From IMG/VR virus record IMGVR_UViG_3300045996_002966, positions 1-64,000 of that record: DNA of 64,000 nucleotides; one strand, written 5' to 3'. This stretch comes from a virus. This document shows positions 1,841 through 53,082 of the stretch, piece by piece. Position 1 is the first letter of the stretch, and every line of letters starts with the position of its first letter. Position numbers and translations under genes: made by a program. Below the pieces are notes generated by a model. It was not told the DNA's origin. It ran no database searches and saw only the letters and a program-made list of their open reading frames with translations.

Positions 1841-1894
1841 GTGACAATGTTTATAAAAATAGGGGTTTACAAGCTCACGGGAGCATGGTGTAAT
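1841..1894 (+). promoter_or_regulatory. 54-bp family promoter P1
   Basis: The upstream box GTGACA (1841-1846) lies 25 bases before a -35 TTTACA (1866-1871). A 17-base spacer follows, then a -10 TGTAAT (1889-1894). AT-rich sequence (ATGTTTATAAAAATA) sits between the box and the -35. The same architecture recurs at about seven other places in this window. It should drive the gene starting at 1951. The transcript would begin at about 1900, near a weak GTTTC...GAAAC hairpin. Confidence 0.8.
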
Positions 1895-1950
1895 GGTTTC
1901 ACGGTCACCGAAACAGACCGAACCCCAACCCCAGTCACAAGGACACGATC

Positions 1951-2322
1951 ATGAAAGCAGCTCAAAAAACCTCCGGCGTCAACAAAGTGGTTTCGCATCG
2001 CCGGACGGCTACCCAGATGCTCAAGAAGGTCGGCATCGCCCAAGCCCGCTACAGCGACTTCATCTCCTGCGGCGAAGACGGCAAGTTCTTTGTGAACATC
2101 GAAGACGCCGTGCGCTCCCTGCAGAAACCTGCCAAGGTCGTCAAGGCTAAAGCGGTGAAGGTCGAGGGCGAGCAGAAGATCACCCTTGCCAACACGATCC
2201 GCTCCATGGTTCTCTCGGGCCAAACCAACGAGGAGATCCGCGAGAGCCTCCAGCTCCCCGACAACAAGCGCCACTACCCCGCTTGGTATCGTGCCGAGAT
2301 GGCTCGCAAAGCTGCGCACTAA
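1951..2322 (+). CDS. WYR-domain protein A (123 aa), putative nucleic-acid binding
   Basis: A small basic protein with two recognisable parts. Residues about 15-50 (RRTATQMLKKVG...) resemble the N-terminus of the protein encoded at 2710. The C-terminus (about 80-120) carries the KRHYPAWYRAEM signature shared with the proteins at 2710 and 3712 and, in degenerate form, with the end of the cytosine methyltransferase at 5224. A Lys/Val/Ala-rich linker joins them. The C-terminal unit looks like a compact helical domain of about 50 residues; DNA or RNA binding is inferred from the basic character, not shown. It is preceded by promoter P1 and followed by a strong hairpin, so it may be monocistronic and well expressed. 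Confidence 0.7.
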   Translation: MKAAQKTSGVNKVVSHRRTATQMLKKVGIAQARYSDFISCGEDGKFFVNIEDAVRSLQKPAKVVKAKAVKVEGEQKITLANTIRSMVLSGQTNEEIRESLQLPDNKRHYPAWYRAEMARKAAH

Positions 2323-2335
2323 TCTCGGGATCCCC

Positions 2336-2360
2336 GGAGGGCTTCGGGCCCTCCTTCTTC
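2336..2360 (+). terminator. Rho-independent terminator after WYR protein A
   Basis: A perfect 7-bp stem GGAGGGC/GCCCTCC (2336-2342 with 2348-2354), a TTCGG loop, and a pyrimidine tail TTCTTCCCC. The U-tract is modest, so termination may be partial. Confidence 0.65.
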
Positions 2361-2384
2361 CCCTAACCCTTTGGAAGCAAAGCC

Positions 2385-2594
2385 ATGAAAGATTTTACAC
2401 CCGCGCAGGCGGCCCGTTGGGTCGCTCAGCAGTTGGCCTCTACTACCCGTCGGGGTCCGGCAGCTGTGCGGGAGCGGATTAAGTCCGAGGAATCGTTTGT
2501 CAAGAGGTATGCCGAGCTGGGCTTACCCGACGATCTACCCATTTCCAGCGGTGCTCACAAAACCCTGATCGAGGAACTGAAGAAGCTGCAGTAA
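2385..2594 (+). CDS. Hypothetical protein (69 aa)
   Basis: ATG at 2385 follows a weakly matching leader. The product (MKDFTPAQAARWVAQQL...) is soluble, helix-rich and balanced in charge. It has no family match that I recognise. It lies between two hairpins (2336 and 2606) within the WYR-protein cluster, so it can be transcribed by read-through from P1. Confidence 0.6.
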   Translation: MKDFTPAQAARWVAQQLASTTRRGPAAVRERIKSEESFVKRYAELGLPDDLPISSGAHKTLIEELKKLQ

Positions 2595-2605
2595 TACTTT
2601 TGTAC

Positions 2606-2628
2606 TAGGGGGTTCCTTCGGCCTCCTA
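2606..2628 (+). terminator. Hairpin with CCTTCGG loop after 2594
   Basis: The stem TAGGGGG/CCTCCTA has seven pairs, one of them G-U, around the loop TTCCTTCGG. No T-tract follows (AAAATAG), so it may be an RNA 3'-end stabiliser or weak terminator rather than a classical one. Confidence 0.4.
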
Positions 2629-2709: not shown

Positions 2710-3333
2710 ATGGAAATAAGCACGAAGATTTTCGCACGGCGCGATTCCGCCACCGCCCTTTTGCGCAAGCTTGGCGTTGACTCGTCGGAGTACGACAAGT
2801 ACATCGTCCGGATGACGACGGGCGAGTATCAACTCTCACTTCCGATCAAGGAAGAACCAGCCAACCCCGATCCGACTATCGCCGACGAGCAGGCAATCGG
2901 GGATCAGAAGGCCAACGCCGCCCTCAGCGATACTCCGCCCCCTCAAGAGGAGGAGGGTGAGGCCGCCTCCGATACGGAAGTCGGCGCCGAGGAGGGGGAG
3001 GGCGGCGCTGAGGAGGAAAAAGAAAAGCCGGCGTCACGGGGCAGAGGTCGGGCTAAGAAGCCTGCCAAAACTCCCAAGGCAAAGAAGGCGAAGCTGGCAC
3101 CGAAGGCGAAGCCCATCAAGCCTGCCGCAAAGATCCCATCGGGGCCGGGGCGGCTGAAAAACTCCGGCGATCGGAAGCCTTCGCTCGCAGCTCGTGCGCG
3201 TGAGCTGATCCTCGCCGGGAAGGACAACGATGCCGTCTTTGTGGTCCTGCAAAGGGAATTTGGCATTTCCGAGCAGAAGAAGCACTACCCCTCCTGGTAC
3301 CGCTCGCAGCTGAAGCGACAAGGGTTACTGTGA
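2710..3333 (+). CDS. WYR-domain protein B (207 aa) with acidic and Lys/Ala-rich linker
   Basis: Three parts are visible. The N-terminal unit (RRDSATALLRKLGVDSSEYD, about residues 10-30) is shared with protein A. The central low-complexity linker first runs acidic (EEEGEAASDTEVGAEEGEG) and then strongly basic, with KKPAKTPKAKKAKLAPKAK-type sequence like eukaryotic histone H1 tails or bacterial H1-like proteins. The C-terminal WYR domain (KKHYPSWYRSQLKR) ends the protein. The composition suggests a nucleic-acid-associated protein whose domains are tethered flexibly. It follows promoter P2, and its stop overlaps the GTG of the next gene. Confidence 0.7.
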   Translation: MEISTKIFARRDSATALLRKLGVDSSEYDKYIVRMTTGEYQLSLPIKEEPANPDPTIADEQAIGDQKANAALSDTPPPQEEEGEAASDTEVGAEEGEGGAEEEKEKPASRGRGRAKKPAKTPKAKKAKLAPKAKPIKPAAKIPSGPGRLKNSGDRKPSLAARARELILAGKDNDAVFVVLQREFGISEQKKHYPSWYRSQLKRQGLL

Positions 3334-5223: not shown

Positions 5224-6570
5224 ATGGCTCGACAACTCACCGCCCTAGGAGGCGCGATCTTCGCTGGCCTGTTCACGGTCGGGATCAAGGAAGCTGGCTA
5301 TAGGGTGCTCGGGCACCTGGAGTTCGGCGACTACGGCGTCGCAACGGCGCGCAAGAACTTCCCCGACCTTGACATCCGCGTAGGTACGCACAACTGGAAT
5401 CCCGAACGGTTCACCGGCAAGGTGGATTTCATGTACACCAACCCGCCGTGCGCTGCCTGGTCGACCCTGGGCCACCCCACGCGGAAGTGGCATGAGCAGA
5501 CCGAGCGACTCTCCTGCGTGCAAGACCTGGTGCAGGCGGGTCTCATCGTGCAGCCGAAGGCTTGGTGCTGGGAGAGCGTGACGGGGGCGTGGGGGAAGGG
5601 TCGCGAATTCGTGCTCGAGCAGGCCCGGATCTGGAATCAGCACGGGTACCACGTGACGGTGCTGCTCCAAAACAACATGTACCTCGGCTGCCCGCAGTTC
5701 CGCAAGCGAATGTTCCTCATCGCTCACAAGCACCCGATTGTCTGGATGCCGTTCGTAGAATCACGGACTACGGGGCAAATCCTGAAGCAGATGCCGAAGC
5801 GAGGCCTGCCGAAGCCCCCGTTGGTACCGCCACCGCTCTCGCCGAGGTTCCTGGAGCTATGGCACCGCTCGGATGGCCACGGGCGCCTGCGGCGCGCCTA
5901 TGAGCAGATGAGCGAGGAGGAGCTAGCGAAGCACCCCGGCATCATCCCGTTCGCCGTCGTGCGGCGGCTCAACCCAGACAAGCCCCCACCGGTGTTCCTG
6001 CAGAGCGCGATGCGGCTCCACCCGACGGAGCCCCGTGAGTTCACCTACCACGAGTGGCTCGAGTTCACGGGGCTGCCGCACAACTGGCAGACGGCCTGCA
6101 CCAGCTTCAACTCCTTCTCCCTGGAGCTATCCCGCGCCGTCATGCCGCCGGTCGGCCGCTGGCTCGGGGAGTCGATCGCCGCCGGTCTCAAGAAGAAGCC
6201 CCTCGACATCAACAAAGGCGTGACCACCAGGGTGGTGAATTTCATGTTCGGGCCGGAGCGGGCCAGCGAGGAGGAGCTATGGCGCACGACGGAGTTCGCC
6301 GACCTCTCGACTCCTGTTTGGAGCCCCGCGACGCCCCCGCCGGAAGCGCCCAAGCGGGTGGCAAGGATAGGAGCCCCGCCCCGCGCGCCAAGCCCAGGGC
6401 GCCCCGGTATCGGGGCTCGAATCAGGGATCTGCTGCAAGACCCGCGAGGCTTTATCACCGAGCAGATTCTCACAACGATCCGGCAGGAGTTTCCCCAGTC
6501 CAAGGCCACCGCGGCCGACGTGTCCTGGAACCGCGGCAAACTGAAGAAGGAGCAGCAACGTGCAGCCTGA
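5224..6570 (+). CDS. DNA cytosine-C5 methyltransferase with C-terminal WYR-like domain
   Basis: A 448-residue Dcm/C5-MTase family protein. Motif I is GGAIFAGLFTVGIKEAG (about 9-25), the catalytic Pro-Cys loop is NPPCAAWSTLG (Cys76), the ENV-equivalent is CWESVTG (about 115-121), and motif VIII is CPQFRKRMFLIAH. The enzyme would transfer methyl from SAM to C5 of cytosine in a short target. The target-recognition region looks short. Beyond the MTase fold, the last 55 residues (IGARIRDLLQDP...DVSWNRGKLKKEQQ) match the WYR domain of the small proteins encoded at 1951-4344, with WYR changed to WNR. Overlap with the next gene is 11 bases. It could protect phage DNA from host restriction. Confidence 0.85.
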   Translation: MARQLTALGGAIFAGLFTVGIKEAGYRVLGHLEFGDYGVATARKNFPDLDIRVGTHNWNPERFTGKVDFMYTNPPCAAWSTLGHPTRKWHEQTERLSCVQDLVQAGLIVQPKAWCWESVTGAWGKGREFVLEQARIWNQHGYHVTVLLQNNMYLGCPQFRKRMFLIAHKHPIVWMPFVESRTTGQILKQMPKRGLPKPPLVPPPLSPRFLELWHRSDGHGRLRRAYEQMSEEELAKHPGIIPFAVVRRLNPDKPPPVFLQSAMRLHPTEPREFTYHEWLEFTGLPHNWQTACTSFNSFSLELSRAVMPPVGRWLGESIAAGLKKKPLDINKGVTTRVVNFMFGPERASEEELWRTTEFADLSTPVWSPATPPPEAPKRVARIGAPPRAPSPGRPGIGARIRDLLQDPRGFITEQILTTIRQEFPQSKATAADVSWNRGKLKKEQQRAA

Positions 6571-7084: not shown

Positions 7085-8007
7085 GATCCGCTCGCCTGAC
7101 CATCTTCGAAGGGCCGGACGGCGCGGGCAAGACCACCCTGGCCCAGGCCTACGCCAAGGAGACCAACGCGCGGTATCTGCACTTCGATGCGCTGCGCGGT
7201 ATCAAGACCGGCGCCGGCCTGGCTCGGCACTACGCCGAGGCGATCATGCCCGCGGTGCTAGGCTACCAGGACATCGTCATGGATCGCTGCTGGCTCTCGG
7301 AGGAGCCCTACGCCGAGGTCTACCACCACGAGCAGGGCAGGCTCGGCCGAGCCCATACCCGAATGCTCGAGCGCCTGGCCCTGCGCTGCGGCGCGGTCGT
7401 GGTTCTTTGCGCTCCGCCCCTGGAGGTGGTACGCGAGAACTACCTGTCGCGCCAGGGTGAGGAGATGCTCGAGAGCGTGGCCCAGCTGGAGCAGGTCTAC
7501 GATCGCTACAAGCGTCACCTGCTTACGCACCTGCCCTGCGTGGCCTACGACTACACCGGGAAGACCGGCAACGCGACGGTGCCGCCCTACTACCTCGAGG
7601 AGTTCCGCGGTCAGCGCCACTCGCTGGCGGTGGGGAGCACGGCGGGTAACTGGGATGCGCGCGTAGTCCTCGTGGGGCAAGACTTCGCTCGGCACAAAGA
7701 CCTGGATTCATACTACCAGTGGCCCTTCGCGTCGTTCGCCGGCGCTGGCTGCTCGCGCTTCCTCACCGATCACCTGGAGGAGTGGGGTATTCTCGAGAGC
7801 GAATTGCTTTGGGTCAACGCCGACATGGTCCTCGAGGCGATCCCGTTCGGCGAGCGCAAGGTGATAGCTCTGGGCGAGCTGGCGTCGATGGCTCTCAACG
7901 TTCTCGACGTGAGGCATACGCTTATCTCTCACCCGCAGTATCATAAACGATTCAAGGCTGGCGAGCCTTATCTGCTCGGCCCTCAGCTCGTGGAGATGTT
8001 GAAATGA
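7081..8007 (+). CDS. dNMP (thymidylate-type) kinase fused to a uracil-DNA-glycosylase-like domain
   Basis: ATG 7081 overlaps the previous stop. Residues 1-185 form a P-loop nucleoside monophosphate kinase: Walker A EGPDGAGKTT (10-19), a DR motif (68-69, MDRCWLSEEPYAE), and a lid-like Arg-rich region. Residues 192-308 are a second domain, RVVLVGQDFARHK..WPFASFAGAGCSRFL...KVIALGELAS...ISHPQYHKRF, whose pattern (VLVGx, PF..FAGxG..L, ALGxxA, HPxYxxRF) resembles UDG superfamily family 4/5 proteins. The glycosylase match is my inference; the canonical acidic/Asn residue of motif A appears replaced (VGQDF). Single-domain dTMP kinases are about 210 residues, so the extension is real. The gene is coupled to the TS homologue by a 4-base overlap. 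Confidence 0.75.
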   Translation: MRSARLTIFEGPDGAGKTTLAQAYAKETNARYLHFDALRGIKTGAGLARHYAEAIMPAVLGYQDIVMDRCWLSEEPYAEVYHHEQGRLGRAHTRMLERLALRCGAVVVLCAPPLEVVRENYLSRQGEEMLESVAQLEQVYDRYKRHLLTHLPCVAYDYTGKTGNATVPPYYLEEFRGQRHSLAVGSTAGNWDARVVLVGQDFARHKDLDSYYQWPFASFAGAGCSRFLTDHLEEWGILESELLWVNADMVLEAIPFGERKVIALGELASMALNVLDVRHTLISHPQYHKRFKAGEPYLLGPQLVEMLK

Positions 8008-8864
8008 CACCTGACCTCACGACCGTCTGGTTGAACACGTTGCATATGGTAGTCTCCGAAGGCCACCAGGTCTCGCCGCGGGGAAAGCTGACCCTGGAGA
8101 TTCCGCAGCACACCAGCGTCGTTAACATGCGGCGCCCGGTGCTCACCGCCCCAGCTCGGAAGCTCTCCTACAAATTCATGGCGGCCGAGGCTTATTGGAT
8201 CCTCTCGGGCGATAACTCCGTGAAGGGAATCGCGCCCTACAACGCGAACATCGCCCAGTTCTCCGACGACGGGGAGACCTTCTTCGGTGCCTATGGGCCG
8301 AAGATCCTGGCTCAGCTCGACTACGTGGTAGCGAAGCTGCTCGAGGATCCGACCAGTCGTCAAGCGGGGCTGACCCTCTGGCGGGAGAACCCACCGACGA
8401 CGAAGGACGTACCCTGCACGGTCGCCATGTTCTTCGCGATTCGCGGGTCGCGGTTGAACCTCCACGTCTTCATGCGGTCGAACGACGTGTGGCTCGGCAT
8501 GCCCTACGACGTCTTCAACTTTTCCATGCTGGCCCATCTGGTTGCCGCCAGGATCAACCGCGAGCGGCAGAACGACCAGATCATGGACGGGCAAGTTCCC
8601 ACGCCAATCAGCGTCGTGCCGGGTAACCTCTACCTGACCGCGGCGAGCTGCCACCTCTACCGTGAGCACTGGGACGCCGCGGCCGACGTGTTTAGCTCGT
8701 CCCTGGGCCTGCAGCCGGCCACGCCGGAGGGACTGTTCCTGAATGAATGGCTGCTGATGGATTGGCTAAAGAAGCTACGCGACGCCGGACCGGAATCCAC
8801 GATGCGCTGGTGGACGCAACCAGCGATCGAGACCACTACCCCAACCCTGGAGGAGAAGTTATGA
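8004..8864 (+). CDS. Thymidylate synthase homologue, probable dCMP (or dUMP) hydroxymethylase
   Basis: The 286-residue protein has the TS fold motifs: the folate/nucleotide region AEAYWILSGD (61-70), the catalytic Cys138 in DVPCT, and RSNDVWLGMPYDVF (158-171). In thymidylate synthases the last motif is LGLPFNIA, with an Asn that selects dUMP. Here Asp169 replaces Asn, the substitution known from T4 gp42 dCMP hydroxymethylase and sufficient in TS mutants to accept dCMP. The Trp-rich IWDEW segment of TS is also missing (NIAQFSDDG). I therefore infer a hydroxymethylase acting on dCMP, with dUMP as the alternative. It overlaps its neighbours by 4 bases on each side. Confidence 0.8.
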   Translation: MTPDLTTVWLNTLHMVVSEGHQVSPRGKLTLEIPQHTSVVNMRRPVLTAPARKLSYKFMAAEAYWILSGDNSVKGIAPYNANIAQFSDDGETFFGAYGPKILAQLDYVVAKLLEDPTSRQAGLTLWRENPPTTKDVPCTVAMFFAIRGSRLNLHVFMRSNDVWLGMPYDVFNFSMLAHLVAARINRERQNDQIMDGQVPTPISVVPGNLYLTAASCHLYREHWDAAADVFSSSLGLQPATPEGLFLNEWLLMDWLKKLRDAGPESTMRWWTQPAIETTTPTLEEKL

Positions 8865-9424
8865 AACTCGAGGAGCACACCCTCGGTGCCGCGATGGCGG
8901 CGATCGAGACCCTGCAAGACCTCGGATTTACCTTCGACAACTCGATCAACCGGCGTTGGAGCCCGCCGAAGAACCTACCGCCTCACATGAGACCAATCCC
9001 GCTGGAGGAGCAGTTTCGCCAGGTGATGATGGCGCTGGGCTTCCCTTCGGCTCAGCACCTCTCGAGTGGCGACGTGCTGACGGTCGCGGTGGCTGGAATG
9101 AAGGTCTTCCAAGAGGCTGACCCTCGCAACCCGCGCACCGGACCATTCGCCAAGGATCTTGAGCGCCGTTCGGCGGACCAAGTAGCTTTGAACGCGGCGA
9201 CCCCGCTCAATACGCTGCCGGCCGCGGAGAAGGAAGCGCGAAAGCACGACCAGACCAAGGTCGGGCTCGAGGCGGAGAAGGAGCTGGTTCGGCAGGTGAT
9301 CCGCGAGGAGCTGAAGATTTCATTGGACCGCCGGCTTAACTACGATTCATGGGATTGGGTTGTTTCGCTTTACCTGGTAAATGACGAGGCCTTTGATTCT
9401 GACGCGGTGAGGGAAGTGCGATGA
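8861..9424 (+). CDS. Hypothetical protein in nucleotide operon (187 aa)
   Basis: ATG 8861 overlaps the previous stop and the gene's stop overlaps the deaminase start, so it is translated as part of the nucleotide operon. The product is soluble and helical. It contains a conserved-looking early segment (MKLEEHTLGAAMAAIETLQD) and a charged C-terminal helix (EAEKELVRQVIREEL). I recognise no family. Its position between a hydroxymethylase-like enzyme and dCMP deaminase suggests a partner or accessory role, but nothing in the sequence proves it. Confidence 0.6.
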   Translation: MKLEEHTLGAAMAAIETLQDLGFTFDNSINRRWSPPKNLPPHMRPIPLEEQFRQVMMALGFPSAQHLSSGDVLTVAVAGMKVFQEADPRNPRTGPFAKDLERRSADQVALNAATPLNTLPAAEKEARKHDQTKVGLEAEKELVRQVIREELKISLDRRLNYDSWDWVVSLYLVNDEAFDSDAVREVR

Positions 9425-9951
9425 CCCGCCCGACCAAAGACCTCTGGGCGATCAACCTCGCGACGATGACCGCCGAGCGAAGCACCTGCGCGCGGCGCCG
9501 CGTGGGCTGCGTGCTGACCAACGTCCGCGGTCACGTGCTCGCTACGGGGTACAACGGGGTGGCGGCGGGGCTACCTCACTGCAACCAGGAAACGGGCAAG
9601 GAGATGAAGCTCCGATACGTGGACGATGCCTCCCATGAGTCGGCGACTTTCTTGGCGCCGGTCTACGCTCACGCCTGCTCCGGCGCGGCCTCGCCGAGCG
9701 GTACGAACCTGGATGCCTGCGAGGCGATCCACGCCGAGCAGAACGCGCTGCTGCAGTGCCACGACGTCTTCGACATCCATACCTGCTACGTGACCGCCAG
9801 CCCCTGCGTGACCTGCACCAAGCTCCTGCTCAACACCGGCTGCCAGCGGATTGTGTTCGTCGAAGAGTACCCGCAGCCCGAGGCCGGCCGGCTCTGGAAG
9901 AAGTCGCACCGCCAATGGCTTCACGTCAGCGAAGTAGGCCACAGTGAGTAG
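9421..9951 (+). CDS. Deoxycytidylate (dCMP) deaminase
   Basis: A 176-residue zinc-dependent cytidine/deoxycytidylate deaminase. The HAE motif (104-106, EAIHAEQNALLQ) supplies a zinc ligand and the proton-shuttling Glu. The PCVTC motif (128-132) supplies the other two zinc ligands. An insertion of about 35 residues before HAE is usual for phage and eukaryotic dCMP deaminases. The enzyme converts dCMP to dUMP, feeding dTTP synthesis and lowering dCMP. It is the last gene of the coupled run that starts at 4434, and promoter P3 begins one base after it. Confidence 0.92.
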   Translation: MTRPTKDLWAINLATMTAERSTCARRRVGCVLTNVRGHVLATGYNGVAAGLPHCNQETGKEMKLRYVDDASHESATFLAPVYAHACSGAASPSGTNLDACEAIHAEQNALLQCHDVFDIHTCYVTASPCVTCTKLLLNTGCQRIVFVEEYPQPEAGRLWKKSHRQWLHVSEVGHSE

Positions 9952-10005
9952 TTGACACTTGTTGATAAACTAAAGGTTTACAAACTCCTGGAATAGGCCT
10001 ACTAT
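9952..10005 (+). promoter_or_regulatory. 54-bp family promoter P3
   Basis: TTGACA box at 9952-9957, -35 TTTACA at 9977-9982, 17-base spacer, -10 TACTAT at 10000-10005. It is followed at once by a perfect hairpin, CTCCTC (10006-10011) with GAGGAG (10018-10023). The 3' arm of that hairpin is the Shine-Dalgarno of the gene at 10030, so the predicted 5' end can hide its own ribosome binding site. Confidence 0.8.
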
Positions 10006-10029
10006 CTCCTCAACCCCGAGGAGATTGAA

Positions 10030-10209
10030 ATGAGCGCCTTCAAACAAGGATACCAAGCCCGAAAAGACGCCACCGGCCCGGAGGAGGGTGTAAATCCTTT
10101 CGCCGGTCCGAAGCAGGTGTGGCTCTCCCAGCAGTGGATGGCCGGTTGGGAAGCGGCAGAAGCTGAGCTGAAGCAGGCGGCGGCTGAATACCACGAGGGA
10201 GATCGGTGA
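10030..10209 (+). CDS. Ribosome modulation factor / CrpP-like protein (59 aa)
   Basis: The short product MSAFKQGYQARKDATGPEEG...NPFAGPKQVWLSQQWMAGW ends in an Ala/Glu helix. The pattern GYxA(R/G)....NPF/Y...W..GW matches the RMF family (E. coli Rmf: RGYQAG..., CPYQ..., WLGGWREA) and the related CrpP proteins of Pseudomonas. RMF drives 100S ribosome dimerisation in stationary phase. A phage copy could modulate host ribosomes, but this is inference. It is driven by P3, and its SD lies within the 5' hairpin. Confidence 0.65.
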   Translation: MSAFKQGYQARKDATGPEEGVNPFAGPKQVWLSQQWMAGWEAAEAELKQAAAEYHEGDR

Positions 10210-10448
10210 TGGAACCCTTCGTCATCCACGTCCGCCGGGTCACCCTCAAAGCTCATTCCATCGACTCCGCCCGTCGGGTGGTGCGGGAGCACATCGAGCT
10301 GATGGAGCAGCGGGGCGAGGGTGGCGCGAGCGAGCTAGGCGCTGAGTTCACCGTCAAGCAAGGGAAGAAAACCATCGGCCATATTAGCTACAACGGTCGC
10401 TTCTGGCCGCTGACCCCGAAGATCACAAAGGAGGAAGATGATGATTGA
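10209..10448 (+). CDS. Hypothetical protein (79 aa)
   Basis: I chose ATG 10209, which overlaps the previous stop (TGATG); a GTG one codon earlier is an alternative. The product begins MEPFVIHVRRVTLKAHSIDS and ends with an acidic EEDDD tail. The pattern of alternating strands and one helix is consistent with a small alpha/beta fold. No family recognised. Coupled to both neighbours. Confidence 0.6.
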   Translation: MEPFVIHVRRVTLKAHSIDSARRVVREHIELMEQRGEGGASELGAEFTVKQGKKTIGHISYNGRFWPLTPKITKEEDDD

Positions 10449-10986
10449 AGTACAAGTAACGCTACCCAGCGAGCGGTGGCAGGTGCTGCTGCGTCGCGTT
10501 GACGGCGATACCTTCGTCGAGGACGTGCGCGCCGCGATCCTGAAGGCGGTGGAGGAAGCCGAGCGCGAGGCAGCGGTAGTCGCCGAAGCCCTTCGCCAAA
10601 GCGAGGAGCGAAGCGAGCGGTACAAGCGTTACCGTGAATACCGCCACGAGCGGCTGCTGCAGAGCCCGGTCGTCAACGGGTTCCGCGCGACGGTTACGGC
10701 TCCTTCCGAGTTGGAGGCTCGCCGGGTTGTCACCCTCTACCACGATCAGCAAGACCTCAGCCGCCCGGCCTATTACGTCTACCTCTCAGAGAAGCAAGGG
10801 TACACCCGCATCGAGCAGGTGGTGAAGCACCGGCGTGGCTTTAGCCGGCGAGAAGTTTCCGGCTGGACCGGGAACGCAGCCACAAGCGCGCGGTTTAATC
10901 GGCTGGTGGCGACGGCGACGCGGCTGGCAGAACTTAGCACCCCCGTCCTACCTCTTGAGGAATGGCACCATGAAGATCAGAGTTGA
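10441..10986 (+). CDS. Hypothetical protein with coiled-coil region (181 aa)
   Basis: AAGGAGG (10428-10434) favours the ATG at 10441 over the adjacent one at 10438. The product has an N-terminal strand (MIEVQVTLPSERWQVLL), a charged helix with coiled-coil character (KAVEEAEREAAVVAEALRQ), and a globular C-terminal half. It overlaps the previous and following genes. Unknown function. Confidence 0.65.
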   Translation: MIEVQVTLPSERWQVLLRRVDGDTFVEDVRAAILKAVEEAEREAAVVAEALRQSEERSERYKRYREYRHERLLQSPVVNGFRATVTAPSELEARRVVTLYHDQQDLSRPAYYVYLSEKQGYTRIEQVVKHRRGFSRREVSGWTGNAATSARFNRLVATATRLAELSTPVLPLEEWHHEDQS

Positions 10987-11269
10987 TAATGAAAAGCTCG
11001 TCGCTCATCGCGCGAAAGAAGAACGCCGGGCGCGGTGCCTAGCGCTGCAAAGTCAGCTGTCCGAGCTGGTAGGCAGCGTGCTCTACAAGGAGAACGGTGA
11101 GCGAACCGACGTGCCCCTCGATCTTATCACGGTAGAGCTGCACGTTAGCGAGGTAGCTCTGCTACGGGAGTTCGATGTGATCACCTACGGCGATAGCAAG
11201 ATCAAGATTTACGGCGACAGCCCGATATTGGTGACCTTTACCACCGTACGCGACGACGATGGCAAGTAA
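10970..11269 (+). CDS. Hypothetical protein (99 aa)
   Basis: ATG 10970 follows the SD-like TTGAGGAATGG and lies inside the end of the previous gene. The product starts MKIRVDNEKLVAHRAKEERR, with a helical N-terminus and a beta-rich C-terminus (KIKIYGDSPILVTFTTV). No family recognised. Confidence 0.6.
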   Translation: MKIRVDNEKLVAHRAKEERRARCLALQSQLSELVGSVLYKENGERTDVPLDLITVELHVSEVALLREFDVITYGDSKIKIYGDSPILVTFTTVRDDDGK

Positions 11270-11319
11270 CCCGAACCGGTGCCATAATGCTGATTCAGGT
11301 GCATAAGGAGGTACCTGAC

Positions 11320-11835
11320 ATGAACACTAAGTACCCATCGGACTACGGGTTGTCGCCCGCTGAGGCCCACGCCTGCAAGGAGACGCAGCACCAGCGGGAG
11401 CTGCAAGAAGCTATTTACCGGGCAGGGGCGCAGCGCCAGCGGGAAGCTCACGCCCGCGAGGAGGAGCAGCACCGGCGGGAGCTGCAAGAAGCTATTCACC
11501 TGGCAAGGGCGCAGCGTCAGCAGCAGGAGCACTACCGGCAGCTCCTGGCCGTCGGCCCGCCGTCCTCCGGCGGTGGCTGCGGAGGCCCGACCTCTGGGTT
11601 GAATCCTTACGAGCAGCCGATTACCAAGCCCGAATTGGCCCATCGAGTCCGACACAACCCGACGGGCGGCACGTACGACGTGCTGGGGCCCAACGGCGAG
11701 TACCGGAAGGCCTACCATCACAAAGACGAAGCAGAGGCGATTGCCGCCTTCTGGTCGGGCGACTTCCTGCACGCGGAGGAATACCGGCGCCGAGTCCTTT
11801 GCCGAGAGGGCCACCTGAAGCCGGAAGATTTGTGA
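11320..11835 (+). CDS. Hypothetical protein with internal Gln/Glu-rich repeat (171 aa)
   Basis: The SD AAGGAGGT selects the ATG at 11320 over an upstream ATG at 11287. Two near-identical helical repeats, HQRELQEAIYRAGAQRQ and HRRELQEAIHLARAQRQ, occupy about residues 24-65. A Gly-rich hinge follows, then a C-terminal unit with NPTGGTYDVLGPNGEYRKAY. The repeats should form an extended helix or coiled coil. Function unknown. Confidence 0.65.
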   Translation: MNTKYPSDYGLSPAEAHACKETQHQRELQEAIYRAGAQRQREAHAREEEQHRRELQEAIHLARAQRQQQEHYRQLLAVGPPSSGGGCGGPTSGLNPYEQPITKPELAHRVRHNPTGGTYDVLGPNGEYRKAYHHKDEAEAIAAFWSGDFLHAEEYRRRVLCREGHLKPEDL

Positions 11836-11867
11836 GTTTGACGTTCAAACAGGGAAAGGAGATTATG

Positions 11868-12068
11868 ATGCTAACTCTAGAACTAGGTTCGGAGCAGGTG
11901 AGGGTCGAGACCATCGTCGAGGCCCGCGAGGCGGCGATTATCTTCTTGGCAGAAGAAGCCGAGCGCGGGGCTGATCCAACGACGCTGGCTGAAATCCAGT
12001 TTCGGCTTTTCAACCGCGAGCGGCTCCTCGGGCTGGTCGTGGGTGGTTACTTCTACCAGGCTCACTAG
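11868..12068 (+). CDS. Hypothetical protein (66 aa)
   Basis: AAAGGAG is 6 bases from ATG 11868 (ATG 11865 is too close). The small helical product (MLTLELGSEQVRVETIVEAR...) ends GGYFYQAH. No family recognised. It lies just before the membrane protein gene at 12070. Confidence 0.6.
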   Translation: MLTLELGSEQVRVETIVEAREAAIIFLAEEAERGADPTTLAEIQFRLFNRERLLGLVVGGYFYQAH

Positions 12069-12069
12069 C

Positions 12070-12384
12070 GTGGATATCCCCGTCAAGAGTCCGCTTAAAT
12101 CAAAGACCGTCTGGCTCAACATCGCTGCGGTCTTCGCGATCTTCTATCTACCGGAAGACCAACTACGCGAGTGGGTGGCCCTGCTGCCGATCCTCGGTGA
12201 CACCGATGACCCCAAGGAACTGGTGGCGATCCTGACGGCGCTCGCCAATCTCTGGCTGCGGTCGCAGTATACCAACCAGCCGGTGACCGTGACCGCCGCG
12301 CTGCGCCCCGTGGACCCCGGTACTACGGTTACCCGTGATACCGGCGTCTATCTTGTGCAGAAGCGCACGCGTGACAATCCTTAA
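12070..12384 (+). CDS. Small membrane protein (104 aa), holin-like N-terminus
   Basis: GTG 12070 lies two bases after the previous stop; a GTG at 12043 is an alternative. The first 65 residues contain a hydrophobic segment SKTVWLNIAAVFAIFYL and a second weakly hydrophobic one (LVAILTALANLWL). The WLN-type start resembles small phage holin-like proteins. The lysis genes are elsewhere (19-22 kb), so this may serve another membrane function. Promoter P4 begins inside its 3' end. Confidence 0.5.
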   Translation: MDIPVKSPLKSKTVWLNIAAVFAIFYLPEDQLREWVALLPILGDTDDPKELVAILTALANLWLRSQYTNQPVTVTAALRPVDPGTTVTRDTGVYLVQKRTRDNP

Positions 12385-12424
12385 TAAAATAGTCGTTTAC
12401 AAGCTCGCTGTGGCGTGATCTAAT
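12371..12424 (+). promoter_or_regulatory. 54-bp family promoter P4
   Basis: GTGACA box 12371-12376 (inside the end of the previous gene), -35 TTTACA 12396-12401, 17-base spacer, -10 TCTAAT 12419-12424. The predicted transcript begins with the hairpin GGCTC (12426-12430)/GAGCC (12441-12445). Confidence 0.8.
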
Positions 12425-12452
12425 GGGCTCTCATCAACGGGAGCCAAGGATC

Positions 12453-12764
12453 ATGAATAAGTCACAAGAACGGGCAATCAACGCGATCCGCCGCCACATA
12501 GAAGATAGCCTCAACACCAATCCAGACTACGGTGATGAGATTACCAGGTGGGAAGTAACGACGACAAGCTATGGCTGCCTCTGGGTGACTGCTGAAAACG
12601 AGATGACAAAGCTCCCCGAGACCAACTTGCTCCGAATCATAGATCGCCAATATTGGCTGTTCGCGATTGGTAAGCGCGGAGCTATCACGATGAAAATGGG
12701 ACCGAACAGCTACAAGCAATTCAACGGCCGCAAGGCCTTCGGTTTTCACGTCGATACCAAATGA
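12453..12764 (+). CDS. Hypothetical protein (103 aa)
   Basis: The first gene after P4. The product starts MNKSQERAINAIRRHIEDSL and has a soluble alpha/beta pattern, with WEVTTTSYGCLWVTAE and a basic C-terminus FNGRKAFGFHV. Sequences of this type are frequent in phage accessory regions, without known function. Its stop overlaps the next reading frame. Confidence 0.65.
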   Translation: MNKSQERAINAIRRHIEDSLNTNPDYGDEITRWEVTTTSYGCLWVTAENEMTKLPETNLLRIIDRQYWLFAIGKRGAITMKMGPNSYKQFNGRKAFGFHVDTK

Positions 12765-12775
12765 GAGGAAAAACC

Positions 12776-13162
12776 ATGAACCCCAACGACGATCGCATCT
12801 ACTGCCTGCTCCCACCGAGTACGGTGCGCATGGTGCGAACCCTTAACCCCGACGGGCCGACTGCCCTGCCCCTGCGCCTCGGGCGCATTCTCGCGGTGCC
12901 GGGGCTCGAGCAGGAGCGCGAAGACGAAATATCTGTCTTCTTTAAGCCTCGTGCGCGGGCCTGGAGCGAGAAACAGCTGCCTCGATACGTTACGATAGGC
13001 GAGGATCTTCGGACGGTTTATAGCTGGCCCCTCGAGTGGCTCTACTGCCGGGAGTTCGCCTTCGGGCGCTTCGTGCGACGGGTCGGGCGGATCGCGGATC
13101 ACCAGTTGATTTTCGATGGACACTACTTCCTTAGCCACTTGGGTATTCGCGCCGAAATCTAA
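12776..13162 (+). CDS. Hypothetical protein (128 aa)
   Basis: GAGAGGAAAAACC precedes ATG 12776, which I prefer to the in-frame ATG at 12761. The product (MNPNDDRIYCLLPPSTVRMV...) is rich in Arg and aromatic residues, with no membrane segment. No family recognised. A large hairpin follows immediately. Confidence 0.6.
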   Translation: MNPNDDRIYCLLPPSTVRMVRTLNPDGPTALPLRLGRILAVPGLEQEREDEISVFFKPRARAWSEKQLPRYVTIGEDLRTVYSWPLEWLYCREFAFGRFVRRVGRIADHQLIFDGHYFLSHLGIRAEI

Positions 13163-13165
13163 GGA

Positions 13166-13202
13166 CGCCTCCGATAGGGTCATCGTGGCCCTACGGGAGG
13201 CG
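13166..13202 (+). terminator. Long two-part hairpin between 13162 and 13248
   Basis: The outer stem CGCCTCC (13166-13172)/GGAGGCG (13196-13202) encloses an inner stem TAGGG (13175-13179)/CCCTA (13189-13193). No T-tract follows; a C-rich leader and the SD CCCCAAGGAG of the next gene do. It could be a rho-dependent pause, a processing site or an mRNA stability element. Confidence 0.5.
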
Positions 13203-13247
13203 CCCCGTGCCTCAACCCCAACCCCTAAACCCCCCAAGGAGAATGTG

Positions 13248-13655
13248 ATGCTTGACAAAGCTAGAATTTCAGCGATCGGCAACGACCTGCGGGATGCGCT
13301 CAAGGCTGTCGCAGAGAAGCACAACCTCAACCTGACCAAGAGTAACATCTCGTTCGCCACCGACTTCTTCAACCTGTCCTGCACCTTCGGTGACAAGGAT
13401 GAGCTGGGCGACGCCAACCCGCTTTATCGCGTGACCATGCAGCGCAAGGGCCACGAGTTCGGGCTCTCGATCGAGGACATCGGCAAGAAGTTCATGACCC
13501 GGCAAGGTGAGGTCGAGATCATCGGCATGCGCGGCTCCCACGTCATCGGGAAGCAGGAGAACGGTCGGCTCTACAAGTACGACCCGGTTACGGTTGCCGG
13601 CCTGCTGGGCCAGAAGCCGACGGCGCTGCGCCTCGCAGTGGGAGGGCGGTCATGA
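13248..13655 (+). CDS. Hypothetical protein (135 aa)
   Basis: ATG 13248 follows CCCCAAGGAGAATGTG. The soluble product begins MLDKARISAIGNDLRDALKA, with mixed alpha/beta content and a basic C-terminus. It is coupled to the next gene by a 4-base overlap. I recognise no domain. Confidence 0.65.
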   Translation: MLDKARISAIGNDLRDALKAVAEKHNLNLTKSNISFATDFFNLSCTFGDKDELGDANPLYRVTMQRKGHEFGLSIEDIGKKFMTRQGEVEIIGMRGSHVIGKQENGRLYKYDPVTVAGLLGQKPTALRLAVGGRS

Positions 13656-14086
13656 CATCGCTTATCACGCTACTCAAGGAGGCCGCCGCGACCTACCTCA
13701 AGCAGCTGACCGAGGAGCCCGACCACGACGAAGCTTTGAACTGGGCGTCGTCCTTCCTACTCGCGGCGCTAGCCCTGAAAAAGCGTGGTCACGACACGGA
13801 GGAGATGCTGCTTGCCCGCGGGCTGATCTTCGAAAAGTACGGCCATGACCTTCTCCTGCATCTTATCTCATCGCCGAGCGAGTTGGAGGCTGAGGGCGCG
13901 AAGATAATCACGCAGACCCTGCTCACCGTTCATTGGACGTTGACGTCGCCGATCGACGACGCCGACAAGGTAACTCACCTGCGGGAGGAGTTATTCCCGC
14001 CGGGCCGACTTGAGCAGGTACTTCACATGGCCGACCTGTTCGGGTTTAAAAACCCAGCGAAAGTCAACTCTAATTTTCTGCACTAG
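13652..14086 (+). CDS. Hypothetical helical protein (144 aa)
   Basis: Starts in the stop of the previous gene. The product is almost entirely helical and acidic (MTSLITLLKEAAATYLKQLT...). No signal peptide or membrane segment. Unknown function. Confidence 0.65.
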   Translation: MTSLITLLKEAAATYLKQLTEEPDHDEALNWASSFLLAALALKKRGHDTEEMLLARGLIFEKYGHDLLLHLISSPSELEAEGAKIITQTLLTVHWTLTSPIDDADKVTHLREELFPPGRLEQVLHMADLFGFKNPAKVNSNFLH

Positions 14087-14099
14087 GGACTGAGAACAA

Positions 14100-14447
14100 A
14101 TGAATGAGCCCATCCTCGCTACCTTCGCCCACCCATGGATAGGGCAGCTGAATCTGGTGCTGAGCACCTACCAGCTGGAGGTCGGCGCCGAGCGCCGGCG
14201 CATTCCCTATCTGTGGGTCGGGCGCGAGGATGGCGAGACGATAGCCACCTTGACCGTAATCCTCAAGGAGGTAAAGCCCTACGCCGCGCTGCCGCCAAAC
14301 CACACCTGGGTGGTGCTGCGACCGGCGCTTACCGGGCTACGCGACCTCCTGCTCGACACCGGCGTCGTGCGCGATACCGGTGTGATCTATGGACCTCATC
14401 ACCCTCCCGCCGAGCTGTGGGAGTATCAACTACCACCACCATCCTAA
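14100..14447 (+). CDS. Hypothetical protein (115 aa)
   Basis: ATG 14100 sits behind GGGACTGAGAACAA. The product (MNEPILATFAHPWIGQLNLV...) looks globular, with a Pro-rich C-terminus ending LPPPS. No family recognised. It is followed directly by the lipoprotein gene. Confidence 0.6.
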   Translation: MNEPILATFAHPWIGQLNLVLSTYQLEVGAERRRIPYLWVGREDGETIATLTVILKEVKPYAALPPNHTWVVLRPALTGLRDLLLDTGVVRDTGVIYGPHHPPAELWEYQLPPPS

Positions 14448-14464
14448 GGACCGGAGTAATCATC

Positions 14465-15316
14465 ATGAAACCCCTCGCCCTAGCCCTCTGCCTTACGCTC
14501 GCCGCTTGCGGCAGCGCAGGAGAGTCACCCGGCTCGGCGGCGACCTCACCCGCAACCGCCGCAGCTCCAACCCCAGCCCCCGTCGCGGCAGCACCATCGC
14601 CCGCCGCGCCTTCTCCGACCCCGCTATCTACGACGGCGCCCGTGGATCCGACGCCGGCCGACCCGAGCACGCCTGCTCCAGGTACCGTTGCCGGCCCCGT
14701 GGTCTACGCCGCCATGCTCCAGCGCTGGGAGCCTACCCCGGCGCCCCACCCCTCGATGGCCCGCCTAACCGAGGCGCCTGGGACGCAGGCCTACTACTTC
14801 CAGCAGGACGGCCTCGAGCCGTTGAACACCCACACCGCGCCCGGCCTGTTCGTCATGAGCCAGGGCTGGCAGAACCAGAACGAGCCCGGCTCGTCGCCGA
14901 CGGACCTGGCGGGGGTCAGCTTCGCCGTCCCGGTGGTTACCGCGCCCGGTCGGCTTGAGCTCTACTTCGAAGGTCGGGTTACGGTTTGGAGTCCGCACAA
15001 CGCGAACAACAACCTCCCGATCGTGCTTGAGGAGCGGCTCATGTATCACCAATCAGGCCTGCGATTCTCCGATACGCCCGGCGTGCTCTACCCGCTGGAT
15101 CAGCTCCTGGGCCGGTGGGCCGATAGCCCCGATCGACGGATCGACCTGCGCCTGGAGCGCGATCCAAGCCCTCGGGCCTTCCAGCTCTGCTGGGAGGCGA
15201 TCCTGCAGACCGCGCGCCGGTCGATGTGTGGTCGCTTCGATCGCGAGACAGGTGCGCACCTCGGGGTGCGGATCGTCGACGACTCCTATGGGCTTGGCCC
15301 GAAGGTTTGGGAGTAA
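14465..15316 (+). CDS. Lipoprotein with Pro/Ala/Thr linker and C-terminal globular domain (283 aa)
   Basis: The first 16 residues, MKPLALALCLTLAACG, are a lipoprotein signal peptide with lipobox LAAC (Cys15 lipidated). Residues about 20-75 are a low-complexity Pro/Ala/Thr/Ser linker, and the remaining 200 residues form a globular domain. The protein would be anchored to an envelope membrane and present its domain in the periplasm or at the surface. Phage lipoproteins are often superinfection-exclusion or receptor-blocking proteins; that role is inference. It stands outside the lysis region and is followed by a promoter, as expected for an independently expressed accessory gene. Confidence 0.7.
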   Translation: MKPLALALCLTLAACGSAGESPGSAATSPATAAAPTPAPVAAAPSPAAPSPTPLSTTAPVDPTPADPSTPAPGTVAGPVVYAAMLQRWEPTPAPHPSMARLTEAPGTQAYYFQQDGLEPLNTHTAPGLFVMSQGWQNQNEPGSSPTDLAGVSFAVPVVTAPGRLELYFEGRVTVWSPHNANNNLPIVLEERLMYHQSGLRFSDTPGVLYPLDQLLGRWADSPDRRIDLRLERDPSPRAFQLCWEAILQTARRSMCGRFDRETGAHLGVRIVDDSYGLGPKVWE

Positions 15317-15332
15317 TAGCCTAAACTGGTTA

Positions 15333-16382: not shown

Positions 16383-16388
16383 ATCCCT

Positions 16389-50732: not shown

Positions 50733-50745
50733 GTGGCGGCGGGTA

Positions 50746-50787
50746 CAAAAAGAGGCCCACGACTCGCAACGAAGTGCGAGCCGCGGG
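50746..50787 (-). terminator. Strong rho-independent terminator upstream of the scaffold-capsid genes
   Basis: On the minus strand, CCCGCGGCTCGCA (50787-50775) pairs with TGCGAGTCGTGGG (50768-50756), 13 pairs including two G-U, around CTTCGT. It is followed by CCTCTTTTTG, a full U-tract. It separates the DUF3606 gene from the scaffold-capsid genes, which therefore need their own promoter. Confidence 0.85.
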
Positions 50788-50832
50788 ACCAATCCACCCG
50801 ACTGGGCAGAGGAGACACTCGAATCACAACCC

Positions 50833-51903
50833 TCACTTGTCCGGGGTGAAGGGCGGCGGCGCAGGCGGCATCGCGGGTGGCGTGGTAGTCTGCGGCGCGG
50901 GAGGTGGGGGCGGCGGTGCGACCGACGATCCAGGGTCGACGACCGGCGCGTTGGCAACCGCAAGATCGTCTACGTGGTGCGGCGGTTGCCCTGGATTCGG
51001 CTCCGCAGCCGTGGGTCCAGGAGGAACAGGCGACGTCGAAGAATCACCGGAAGGGCCAGCCGCGGCGGCGCCCTCCGGGCTGGGTTCCCCCGGCGCTACA
51101 CCTTCCACCGGGGCAGGCTTTGCCGGATCACCGACGGGAGCATCCGCGGGGCTCGAGGCCGGATCGGCTGGCGCTGCGGGTGAACCAGGTGAATCAGCTG
51201 GCTCGGAAGACGACGGAGCGGCATCGGCCGCGGGAGCTTGGTCACCTGACGGGGCGGCTCCAGGAGCCGCGCCAGCATCCGTGGGGTCATCCCCCGCGGA
51301 GCCCGAATCACCTGACCCGGTGTCGGCGTCAGGCTGTTCAACTCCTGAAGGAGCTGGGCTGTCTCCAGCAGGCTCGGCATGGCCACCATCGACGGGCTCC
51401 TGAGGTTGAGGGTCTCCCACGACGTCGGGCGGAGCATCGGTGCTGGGCGCCGGGTCTTCCGCTACGGGAGAATCCACGGGGTCAGCCGCGGGATCCTCGG
51501 CGGCGGGAGGAGCAGCGGGCTCCTCGGCCACAGGGTCGTCGACCGCCGGATCAGCGGCCGGGTCGCTACCCTCCACCGGGTCAGCGGCGGGCTCCTCGGC
51601 CACCGGATCCTCGGCGGCAGGCTCCTCGTTAGCTTCCTCGGGCGGCACCACATCGACGTCCGTCGGGTCGGTCACAACCGGCTGCTGCGGGTCGATCGGC
51701 GGGACGGTTACACCGGGGTCTGCCTCGTGCAGCTGGCCCTGATCCTTCAGGAACTGCCGCACCTTCGCAACGCTGTTCCCCGCGCTGGCGATGGCATGGC
51801 GCAACTGCGGTCGCGAGCAGCCGAACTTCTTGGACCAATAGCCCAGCTCATGCGCCTGCATGGTGCTGATGCGCTTTCGGTCACCCGAGCCTGTCTTGGC
51901 CAT
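50833..51903 (-). CDS. DUF3606 protein with long acidic Pro/Ala/Asp tail (356 aa)
   Basis: ATG 51903. Residues about 1-55 (GSGDRKRISTMQAHELGYWS...) match the DUF3606 pattern (a small helical domain with YW, the conserved Cys-containing FGCSRPQLRHAI and a terminal VRQFL). It is followed by 300 residues of low-complexity acidic Pro/Ala/Asp/Glu sequence (EEPAAEDPVAEEPAADPVEG). The tail should be disordered and highly negative. Placed in the head operon before the scaffold, but its role is unknown. Confidence 0.65.
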   Translation of the reverse strand: MAKTGSGDRKRISTMQAHELGYWSKKFGCSRPQLRHAIASAGNSVAKVRQFLKDQGQLHEADPGVTVPPIDPQQPVVTDPTDVDVVPPEEANEEPAAEDPVAEEPAADPVEGSDPAADPAVDDPVAEEPAAPPAAEDPAADPVDSPVAEDPAPSTDAPPDVVGDPQPQEPVDGGHAEPAGDSPAPSGVEQPDADTGSGDSGSAGDDPTDAGAAPGAAPSGDQAPAADAAPSSSEPADSPGSPAAPADPASSPADAPVGDPAKPAPVEGVAPGEPSPEGAAAAGPSGDSSTSPVPPGPTAAEPNPGQPPHHVDDLAVANAPVVDPGSSVAPPPPPPAPQTTTPPAMPPAPPPFTPDK

Positions 51904-51955
51904 AGCTAAGACCTCCGTGTATGGGTTCACAAACACAAGTGGGCTAATTCTACAC

Positions 51956-53026
51956 CTATTTGTTAAACAGCGTTTCGTCGCGTCGTTTCAGGGCCTCGAG
52001 GTCAAGCACCTCGCCCTGCTTATTCACAAACTTGTCGAGAGGAAGGTGGTGCTCCCGAAAGAGCTGCCCGCGCTTCGCACCAAGCACCTCGTCCTGGACC
52101 GCGGCCGGTTGATCCCGCAGCCAGCCCCCGAAGCTGGTGGCCGCTGGCACCTGACCATCCATCGAGGCGCGCATACCGGCGTCGACCTCCTCGAGGTTCA
52201 CACCCAGCTCGCGCCAGGAGGCGGTGATCGGCGCCGCTAGACTGCGGCAGTTCCAGTGGCGCGGGGGCTGCGGACCTTTACCGACCGGGAAGGTCTTGCC
52301 GTCCAGGCTGCCGCAGGTGATCGAGGTTCGCGAGTCCAGGGTGGCGCGGAACACCCAGCGCGGCACCAGGTCTTTGTTCTCCTCATAGATTTTCTGCTTG
52401 GCGTAATTCTGCGTGTGGTTCACCGCGGTTCGCACCAGGGCTGCCAGCTGGTGGCGCGGTCGCTCGAGGAGGCCATCGGCGTAGCCCTGGGCGCGTGTGC
52501 CTCGTAAGGTGCGGGTGATCTCCGCCTCGGTACGACCCTCGATGATCCCCATGCGAATGGTGTCGCGGATCAGCTTCGCGCGCCCTGCTTCTTGGTCCTC
52601 CAGGGCCTCGGAGAGCAGTACACCCTGGAAGGGTCGGGCCATCGCGGCGGCGAATACCTGATCGGCAACCACGCGATTAACCCCGAGCTGGGTCACGATG
52701 GGCTCCGGCACCTCGGTCTCGAGCAGGGTCGCCTGGTACTCCAGCTCGTGGTCGAGGAAATCATGCAGCTCAACGCTCAGCGCGCGGCTCAGCCGATCGT
52801 AGGAGGTCGCGTTAAGGGCGTTTGCGTCGACGAGAAGGGCCTCCAGGCGCTCAATTCGCAGGTCCGAGGCTGTACCCTCGATCGCCGCGCTCAAACGCGC
52901 TAGGAGGTCTGTATCGACCTCGTTCAACAGGCCTACCATGCGCTGGACGGCGCCGTTCGCGAAGCGCTGCAGGCTTACCGCGTGCCGAACCTCCGCGTTG
53001 AAGAGCCTTTCATTGACGGTAGCCAC
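51956..53026 (-). CDS. MuF-like head morphogenesis protein (356 aa)
   Basis: The phage Mu F-like C-terminal signature is visible at RHWNCRSLAAPI and TLDSRTSITCGSLDGKTFPV (about residues 225-265), typical of proteins near the portal. I chose GTG 53026; TTG 53035 is possible. No SD precedes either, and the upstream region is occupied by promoter P11 of an inserted plus-strand cassette, so the real start or coupling signal may have been disrupted. It is normally a portal neighbour. Confidence 0.75.
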   Translation of the reverse strand: MATVNERLFNAEVRHAVSLQRFANGAVQRMVGLLNEVDTDLLARLSAAIEGTASDLRIERLEALLVDANALNATSYDRLSRALSVELHDFLDHELEYQATLLETEVPEPIVTQLGVNRVVADQVFAAAMARPFQGVLLSEALEDQEAGRAKLIRDTIRMGIIEGRTEAEITRTLRGTRAQGYADGLLERPRHQLAALVRTAVNHTQNYAKQKIYEENKDLVPRWVFRATLDSRTSITCGSLDGKTFPVGKGPQPPRHWNCRSLAAPITASWRELGVNLEEVDAGMRASMDGQVPAATSFGGWLRDQPAAVQDEVLGAKRGQLFREHHLPLDKFVNKQGEVLDLEALKRRDETLFNK

Positions 53027-53028
53027 AG

Positions 53029-53082
53029 TTGACAATCTTTAATAAAATGAGGGTTTACAAGTGCGCAGGTTTGTGGTGTAAT
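53029..53082 (+). promoter_or_regulatory. 54-bp family promoter P11 (moron cassette)
   Basis: TTGACA box 53029-53034, ATAAAATGAGG, -35 TTTACA 53054-53059, 17-base spacer, -10 TGTAAT 53077-53082. It is on the plus strand inside a minus-strand operon and drives the gene at 53108. Confidence 0.82.

Follow-up and report, generated by a model that had tools for sequence, protein, structure and literature searches.

The DNA analyzed here is a window of 64,000 bases (bases 1–64000) from the 71,959-base virus record IMGVR_UViG_3300045996_002966, in which one promoter-like module occurs in seven dispersed copies. This module is probably a strong early promoter for the host RNA polymerase that is set once ahead of each gene, in the manner of the early promoters of phage T4. 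An A/T element upstream would contact the alpha subunits of the main host RNA polymerase. In the core, GTTTACA (-36 to -30) would be followed by 17 spacer bases, the last of them GTGn, and then by the -10 element and a GG discriminator, with transcription starting at about CA. One copy would serve each of seven unrelated small genes, mostly without an assigned function, and these genes would be expressed together right after DNA entry, without waiting for read-through. The box farther upstream, KTGACAnTnnTT, would most simply be this phage's own distal half of an upstream (UP) element, and an overlaid protein site is the main alternative.

Seven copies of the module and their layout

A search of the whole record with TGACANNNNTTNATAAANTANNNGTTTACA at up to three mismatches gave seven matches, all on the + strand, and none on the other strand or with the reversed pattern as a control, so that no eighth copy is present in the 71,959 bases. 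The copies lie at 1841–1896, 9952–10007, 12371–12426, 17737–17792, 18218–18273, 18679–18734 and 53029–53084, and their weight-matrix scores range from 61.8 to 79.4 bits (69.9, 61.8, 73.2, 72.4, 79.4, 78.9 and 74.7 bits, respectively). These are the seven positions given in a preliminary description made from the sequence alone. The distance of 25 bases between TTGACA and TTTACA and the 17-base spacer, both noted there, are kept in all seven.

The module was numbered with TTTACA as -35 to -30. The fixed letters upstream are K-60, T-59, G-58 (six of seven copies), A-57, C-56, A-55, T-53, T-50 and T-49. Those of the AT box and the -35 region are AAA at -45 to -43, T-41, G-36 and TTTACA, and those of the -10 region are TGn (six of seven), T-12, A-8, T-7, GG at -6/-5 (six of seven) and C-1 (all seven). 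A is absent at -11 in six copies, where C or G stands instead. The copy at 1841, for instance, has a GTGACA box, the AT box, TTTACA, TGn, TGTAAT and GG.

Some elements first described as common to all copies vary. The [GT]TGACA box is found in every copy except that at 17737, which has GTAACA. The -10 element TNNAAT is found in six, and the copy at 9952 is the sole one with TACTAT, and thus with A at -11, and the sole one without TGn. The AT box is shifted by one base at 1841, reads TG for TA at 53029 and has CG for GG at 12371. The proposal that the TGA of the box is often the stop codon of the preceding gene holds at 18218 and 18679, where it ends the genes at 18069–18221 and 18488–18682. 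At 17737 the box contains TAA instead, the stop of the gene at 17321–17740; at 12371 the upstream gene (12070–12384) ends deeper inside the module; and at 9952 a TAG stop lies directly ahead of it.

Conservation of the boxes

The combined blocks are far more frequent in the record than in 60 order-1 simulations. KTGACA-N19-TTTACA has six exact matches compared to a simulated mean of 0, and GTTTACA-17-TNN[AT]AT has eight compared to a mean of 0.017. GTTTACA sites with a 17-base spacer number nine on the early strand and none on the opposite strand.

The seven copies have a mean pairwise identity of 100% in the -35 element, and the values for the distal box, the AT box and the -10 element are 86%, 83% and 76%. 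The flanks are far lower, at 25% upstream and 26% downstream, as are the middle nine spacer positions (32%), and the other short blocks of the module are intermediate (40–76%). The boxes of the module are under selection. Since the unconserved mid-spacer is a built-in control and is near-random, the distal box is also kept by selection. It is hardly credible that the copies are recent duplications without a function of their own. The copies at 17737 and 18218 do have a common start region, but outside the fixed boxes the mid-spacer and flanks have diverged to near-random sequence, and every copy leads into a ribosome site and an ATG.

Core promoter in related phages

A megablast search of window positions 8000–23000 against named phages gave only a 178-base match, to AXL3. 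By the helicase, the nearest named phages are MW202621 (65.8%), PW916 (62.4%) and AXL3 (62.2%). We searched 37 records, many of them close kin or fragments, which comprised 33 of the 34 helicase relatives, three terminase relatives and the phage's own record. With at most one mismatch, GTTTACA-17-TANNAT was found in 28 of the 37, its own record included, with 122 sites compared to 8 for the reversed pattern. None was found in the three nearest terminase relatives, so the core promoter seems to travel with the early arm.

A TTTACA promoter lies downstream of the helicase gene in 23 of 34 loci, and by inspection also in loci L110, L122 and L123. The typical form is TTGAAAATAGGTG-TTTACA-17-TANAAT, many have a CGGTC..GACCG leader, and the copy at 1841 matches in both place and leader. 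AXL3, PW916, MW202621 and the IMG/VR helicase relatives share the register of the AT box and GTTTACA-17-TANNAT with the module. As in the window, their promoter follows the helicase gene or precedes relatives of the gene behind the copy at 1841 (the copy-1 gene). PW916 has a promoter in both places, the one after the helicase gene being at 2024.

However, the relatives mostly carry TTGAAAATANNTG, and the module of this phage reads TTnATAAAnTAnnGG. Among 59 relative sites taken without an A/T filter, A-11 is present in 58, TGn in 3 and TGACA in none. None of the 34 helicase-relative records and none of the 23 terminase-relative records contained the TGACA module; they are fragments, so that this absence is not proof. 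The weight matrix of the module found no other locus above 18.6 bits in the relative-locus set, and the exact module occurred in no viral contig and no genome contig searched. With looser patterns, 10 and 56 stretches were obtained, each containing a single match; the 10 were inspected, the 56 were scored against the module (best 15 of 56), and 11 loci were examined further. The single high-scoring promoter of locus L229 (52.3 bits) was rejected, as no sister copy with TGACA is present in its 8-kb contig. The count over the complete genome and relatives proposed in the preliminary description gave seven copies in the record and no TGACA module in any relative record searched.

MW202621 has CTAG..CTAG palindromes in place of TGACA, somewhat further upstream. 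Six of its seven listed promoters have a 16-bp palindrome near CTAGNACWTGTNCTAG, 21–22 bases ahead of the -35. There are five such palindromes in all, one of which serves two divergent promoters, and the palindrome pattern has 13 matches (both strands counted; three places elsewhere) compared to 2.8 expected. The same genome (locus L135) encodes at 11756–12085 an annotated 'regulatory protein' of 109 amino acids with a Cro/CI-type helix-turn-helix recognized by eye, and no homologue of it was found in the window's record.

The near-palindromic TTGWAAA-N6-TTTACAA of the relatives could also be read as an operator over the -35, bound by a dimeric repressor or activator. Some relatives have near-perfect dyads, such as TGTAAATACCTGTTTACA in locus L124. 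The copies in the window retain only part of the left arm, and the T-run and A-run of an UP element already give most of the letters of such an operator, which makes this explanation very unlikely.

A dense one-strand array of GTTTACA-17-TANAAT promoters was also observed in locus L219 (record IMGVR_UViG_3300042923_001459, 108,591 bases). At up to one mismatch it has 73 reverse and 6 forward matches, with 0 and 2 in the control. Most sites lie between 74 and 108 kb at intervals of a few hundred bases, and those inspected have a common leader.

Comparison with T4 early promoters

According to PMC2988021, T4 early promoters consist of UP, -35, TGn and -10 elements and compete very well for the host polymerase. 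In T4-like phages, predicted promoters of this kind stand ahead of novel open reading frames (ORFs) and carry GTTTAC at -36 to -31 together with an A-rich stretch from -40 to -44 (PMC1524935). The module resembles these promoters in its shared build and its many dispersed copies, often before novel ORFs.

GTTTAC at -36 to -31 is present in all seven copies. The A-rich stretch from -40 to -44 is also present, with A-44 and A-43 in all seven and A/T at -42 and A-40 in six. TGn precedes the -10 element in six copies; G-14 occurs in 81% of the T4 comparison set, which comprised 21 GTTTAC sites found in 90.9 kb of T4 at a spacer length of 17 bases. A TATAAT-like -10 element with A-11 was found in one of the seven copies. 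In the comparison columns left as a test, A/T at -44 to -40 and A+1 are common to T4 and the relatives, and TGn is found in T4 only.

The module differs from T4 promoters by the TGACA box at -59 to -55, by C or G at -11 in six of seven copies and by its fewer copies. Furthermore, the portal, terminase and head genes of this phage are siphovirus-like and not those of T4, and no ADP-ribosylating protein, a point of contrast with T4, was found among 50 proteins scanned against Pfam. The module was not classed as a T4 early promoter because A-11 is missing in six of seven copies and because we infer polymerase use and timing.

Probable UP element and distal box

The two UP subsites adjoin the -35, the proximal one at -45 to -37 and the distal one at -58 to -45 (PMC2613000). 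The E. coli UP element of rrnB P1 is similar to the module in its A/T subsites adjoining the -35. It differs in that the module has a fixed G and C in the distal half.

We scored the sites against an UP consensus with a maximum of 11 for the distal and 4 for the proximal subsite. The seven copies reached 6.57 and 2.71, and places drawn at random from the record reached 2.79 and 0.82, so that on this consensus the proximal subsite is present, and the distal one scores well yet has C-56 and G-58 fixed. The 59 relative sites, again without the A/T filter, reached 5.02 and 2.36 compared to 3.04 and 0.92 at random. T4 sites scored 5.81 (background 4.63) in the distal and 2.48 (background 1.27) in the proximal half.

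A promoter with an upstream element is well supported, because the AT box lies at the proximal UP subsite, in the same register in the relatives and in T4 early promoters. The preliminary description had read the fixed 25-base distance as a second binding site, for an UP element or a phage activator. This interpretation is partly supported: for the TTGACA box as more than a distal UP half the evidence points both ways. The distal A/T letters match an UP half at least as closely as those of T4, so the UP reading needs no further assumption.

Several observations weigh against a simple T4-like promoter for the host polymerase. The comparison sites were chosen by G-36, TTTAC and the -10 element, and 45 relative sites also by upstream A/T (89 of 114 kept), so the likeness in these columns, for the relatives in upstream A/T too, is built in. 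TGn occurs in only 3 of 59 relative sites, so part of the likeness to T4 is peculiar to this phage. T4 promoters are only modestly above the A/T-rich background of T4 in the distal half. An UP element requires neither C-56, present in all seven copies, nor G-58, present in six. A at -11 is normally the most important base of the -10 element; it is lost in six of seven copies and kept in 58 of the 59 relative sites. Such a loss is unexpected in a simple strong sigma-70 promoter and may point to a need for another factor.

An UP element does not account for the constancy of C-56 and G-58 or for the poor -10 element; a protein-bound box would account for both. The TGACA box might therefore be the site of a DNA-binding protein, likely phage-made, that activates the seven promoters and on which their weak -10 elements would make them dependent; we regard this as possible, at some distance from likely. 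G-58 and C-56 are kept while the mid-spacer and flanks are near-random, the module differs from the relatives twice at once, in the TGACA box and in the loss of A-11, and MW202621 has its palindromes 21–22 bases ahead of the -35 in six of seven promoters. However, the A/T letters of the box fit an UP element with a consensus score at least equal to that of T4 promoters, and no clear repeat or dyad runs across all copies. In addition, C at -11 does not depend on the TGACA box, because AXL3 and PW916 carry a site that combines TTTACA with TCTAAT and lacks TGACA.

Phage Mu Pm with its activator Mor (PMC4390567) is a phage promoter that joins a partial UP element to an activator site. Mor is placed there at -43.5, whereas the module has a fixed box at -59 to -55 in seven copies and at most a putative activator.

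Other readings of the box were rejected. TTGACA as a second -35 has no -10 at 16–18 bases by inspection, where GGTTTA stands. For an integration host factor site, the TTGAT core was seen by inspection in two of seven copies only. A TGACA-TGTCA dyad was seen in loci L198 and L213/L218, and it gives no support for the module because the L213 and L218 contigs carry 54 and 36 such palindromes throughout and the phage of the window has none.

These palindromes are of interest in their own right. L213 (IMGVR_UViG_3300028833_000006) has 54 perfect palindromes TGACANNNNTGTCA spread over the contig and L218 (IMGVR_UViG_3300031992_000098) has 36, with 0 for the reversed-pattern control in both. Their listed sites largely coincide, so that the two look like near-identical phages. 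The array resembles stoperator or partition-type sites, and the phage of the window has none.

Product of the gene behind copy 1

The activator candidate is the product of the copy-1 gene (1951–2322, + strand), a protein of 123 amino acids with a predicted C-terminal helix-turn-helix and homologues in related phages, which would itself be made from copy 1, the best conserved of these promoters. A tblastn match to it or to its MW202621 relative was found in 30 of 37 loci. A TTTA[CT]-type promoter lies within 90 bases of the assigned gene start in 25 of these 30. This pattern is loose, as it was found in 146 of 6,000 random 160-base stretches (2.4%), and the 25 promoters represent 21 distinct cores and are not all independent. 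It is missing at L119, L120, L122, L127 and L130, of which L127 has GGTTACA instead. In L106, L110, L118 and L130 the C-terminal part alone matches, and the start assigned in L110 may be wrong. The gene keeps such a promoter away from the helicase too, in MW202621, AXL3 and PW916.

The family alignment held 22 proteins, that of the window and 21 of the 30. Proteins of the three named phages were left out, as were six others that were near-duplicate, cut or uncertain. The structural model has a mean predicted local distance difference test (pLDDT) score of 77 overall and 91–92 in the blocks of 81–120. No Foldseek match was found at E 0.001 or better. The best rows of VIA-align were mostly helix-turn-helix domains aligned at residues 74–123, with Z up to 4.9 over 43 residues. 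Because its modeled C-terminal part aligns mostly with helix-turn-helix domains, the copy-1 protein is probably a DNA-binding protein and the natural regulator candidate.

The family also gave weak Pfam matches, to Ras association in 8 of 22 members (best E 0.00017) and to three other entries, which we did not accept as homology. Neither did we accept the PDB profile match 8vd6, which involves one short stretch repeated in that chain; this entry is named in a protein-design paper. Two likenesses to other genes were also observed. The end of a DNA methyltransferase at 5224–6570 (+ strand) matches phrog_17205, which also matches 20 of the 22 family members. The product of the gene at 2710–3333 ends in a KKHYPxWYR motif, and K[KR]HYPxWYR also ends the copy-1 protein.

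For the candidate as activator of the TGACA box, the frequent promoter ahead of its relatives and the well-modeled C-terminal domain are favorable. Against it, the helix-turn-helix gene is also present in relatives without the TGACA box, so that the two do not co-vary, and the structural matches stay below Z 5 in VIA-align and beyond E 0.001 in Foldseek. A fuller form of this idea is a private regulon, in which the copy-1 protein would bind TGACA and activate dispersed orphan host-takeover genes, and each relative would keep the core with a distal site of its own; this we consider unlikely.

Genes behind the copies and their place in the genome

Under the preferred reading of a dispersed early promoter, each copy would drive the gene directly behind it. 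Gene starts were taken from our own simple gene caller, the ORF list and inspection. An ATG with a ribosome site follows 77–82 bases past the module start in six copies and 110 bases past it at 1841, that is, 17–22 and 50 bases past the likely start point.

Besides the copy-1 gene, the genes are all on the + strand. Copy 2 is followed by 10030–10209 (59 amino acids), whose product weakly resembles ribosome modulation factor (20.9 bits, below the cut-off of 27.9) and has no close relatives among viral contigs. Copies 3 to 6 are followed by 12453–12764 (103 amino acids), 17816–18055 (79), 18295–18486 (63) and 18756–18902 (48), none with a Pfam match; the last was missed by the gene caller and comes from the ORF list and its ribosome site. 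Copy 7 is followed by 53108–53326 (72 amino acids), which matched none of 50,697 phage records. A common origin of the seven products (48–123 amino acids) was rejected, with nothing beyond one 7-residue chance match.

The + strand carries the replication and nucleotide metabolism arm and the - strand the head and tail genes. Six copies lie in the early arm and one among the late genes. From strand, position and sharing, the seven copies are likely co-activated as an early set; we infer the start point, early timing, strength and use of the host polymerase from the sequence. No sigma factor or RNA polymerase was found among the proteins scanned (40 against PHROGs and 50 against Pfam, part of the record's proteins). 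An 898-amino-acid protein had no relatives among named phages.

Copy 7 stands within the leftward late operon, with portal and head-morphogenesis genes on either side, and reads against the operon. In AXL3, PW916 and MW202621 the gene after the portal begins within 4 bases of the portal end or overlaps it, which suggests that a segment of about 0.5 kb, equipped with its own promoter, was inserted here like a moron. A terminator was searched for downstream of this cassette at 53 kb and not found. A second + strand ORF of the cassette, at 53363–53641 with the ribosome site CCCCAAGGAGCAGAGCCATG, overlaps the 3' end of the portal gene on the opposite strand.

Partial copies and a candidate short RNA

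The partial copies reported at 2638, 15333, 60641 and, in reverse, 16418 are all present with TTTACA, and the TGACA box is found in none. The first (2613–2668, + strand, 10.3 bits) has an AAAATAG box and GTTTACA-17-TACTAT and lies ahead of the gene at 2710–3333. That at 60640–60669 (+ strand) has GTTTACA-17-TTAACT about 10 bases ahead of tRNA-Pro, and that at 15333 has ATTTACA-17-TATCCT.

The reverse copy belongs to a candidate short RNA of about 85 bases at 16304–16418 (- strand), where GTTTACA-18-TAGAAT is followed at once by a 16-pair terminator. Its fold has a z of -5.1, terminator stem included. Pairing of this RNA with the seven module leaders was rejected, since 8, 54, 69, 65, 98, 77 and 80 of 100 random stretches were equal or better.

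Implications

The same promoter solution, GTTTACA with an A/T element and one copy per small gene, would thus be used in phages that are not T4-like by their head and packaging genes. In these phages, a search for GTTTACA-17-TANNAT may lead directly to genes that are candidates for early host takeover. Furthermore, the fixed distal box would allow a clear-cut test of what reads the far upstream half, the polymerase or a phage protein.

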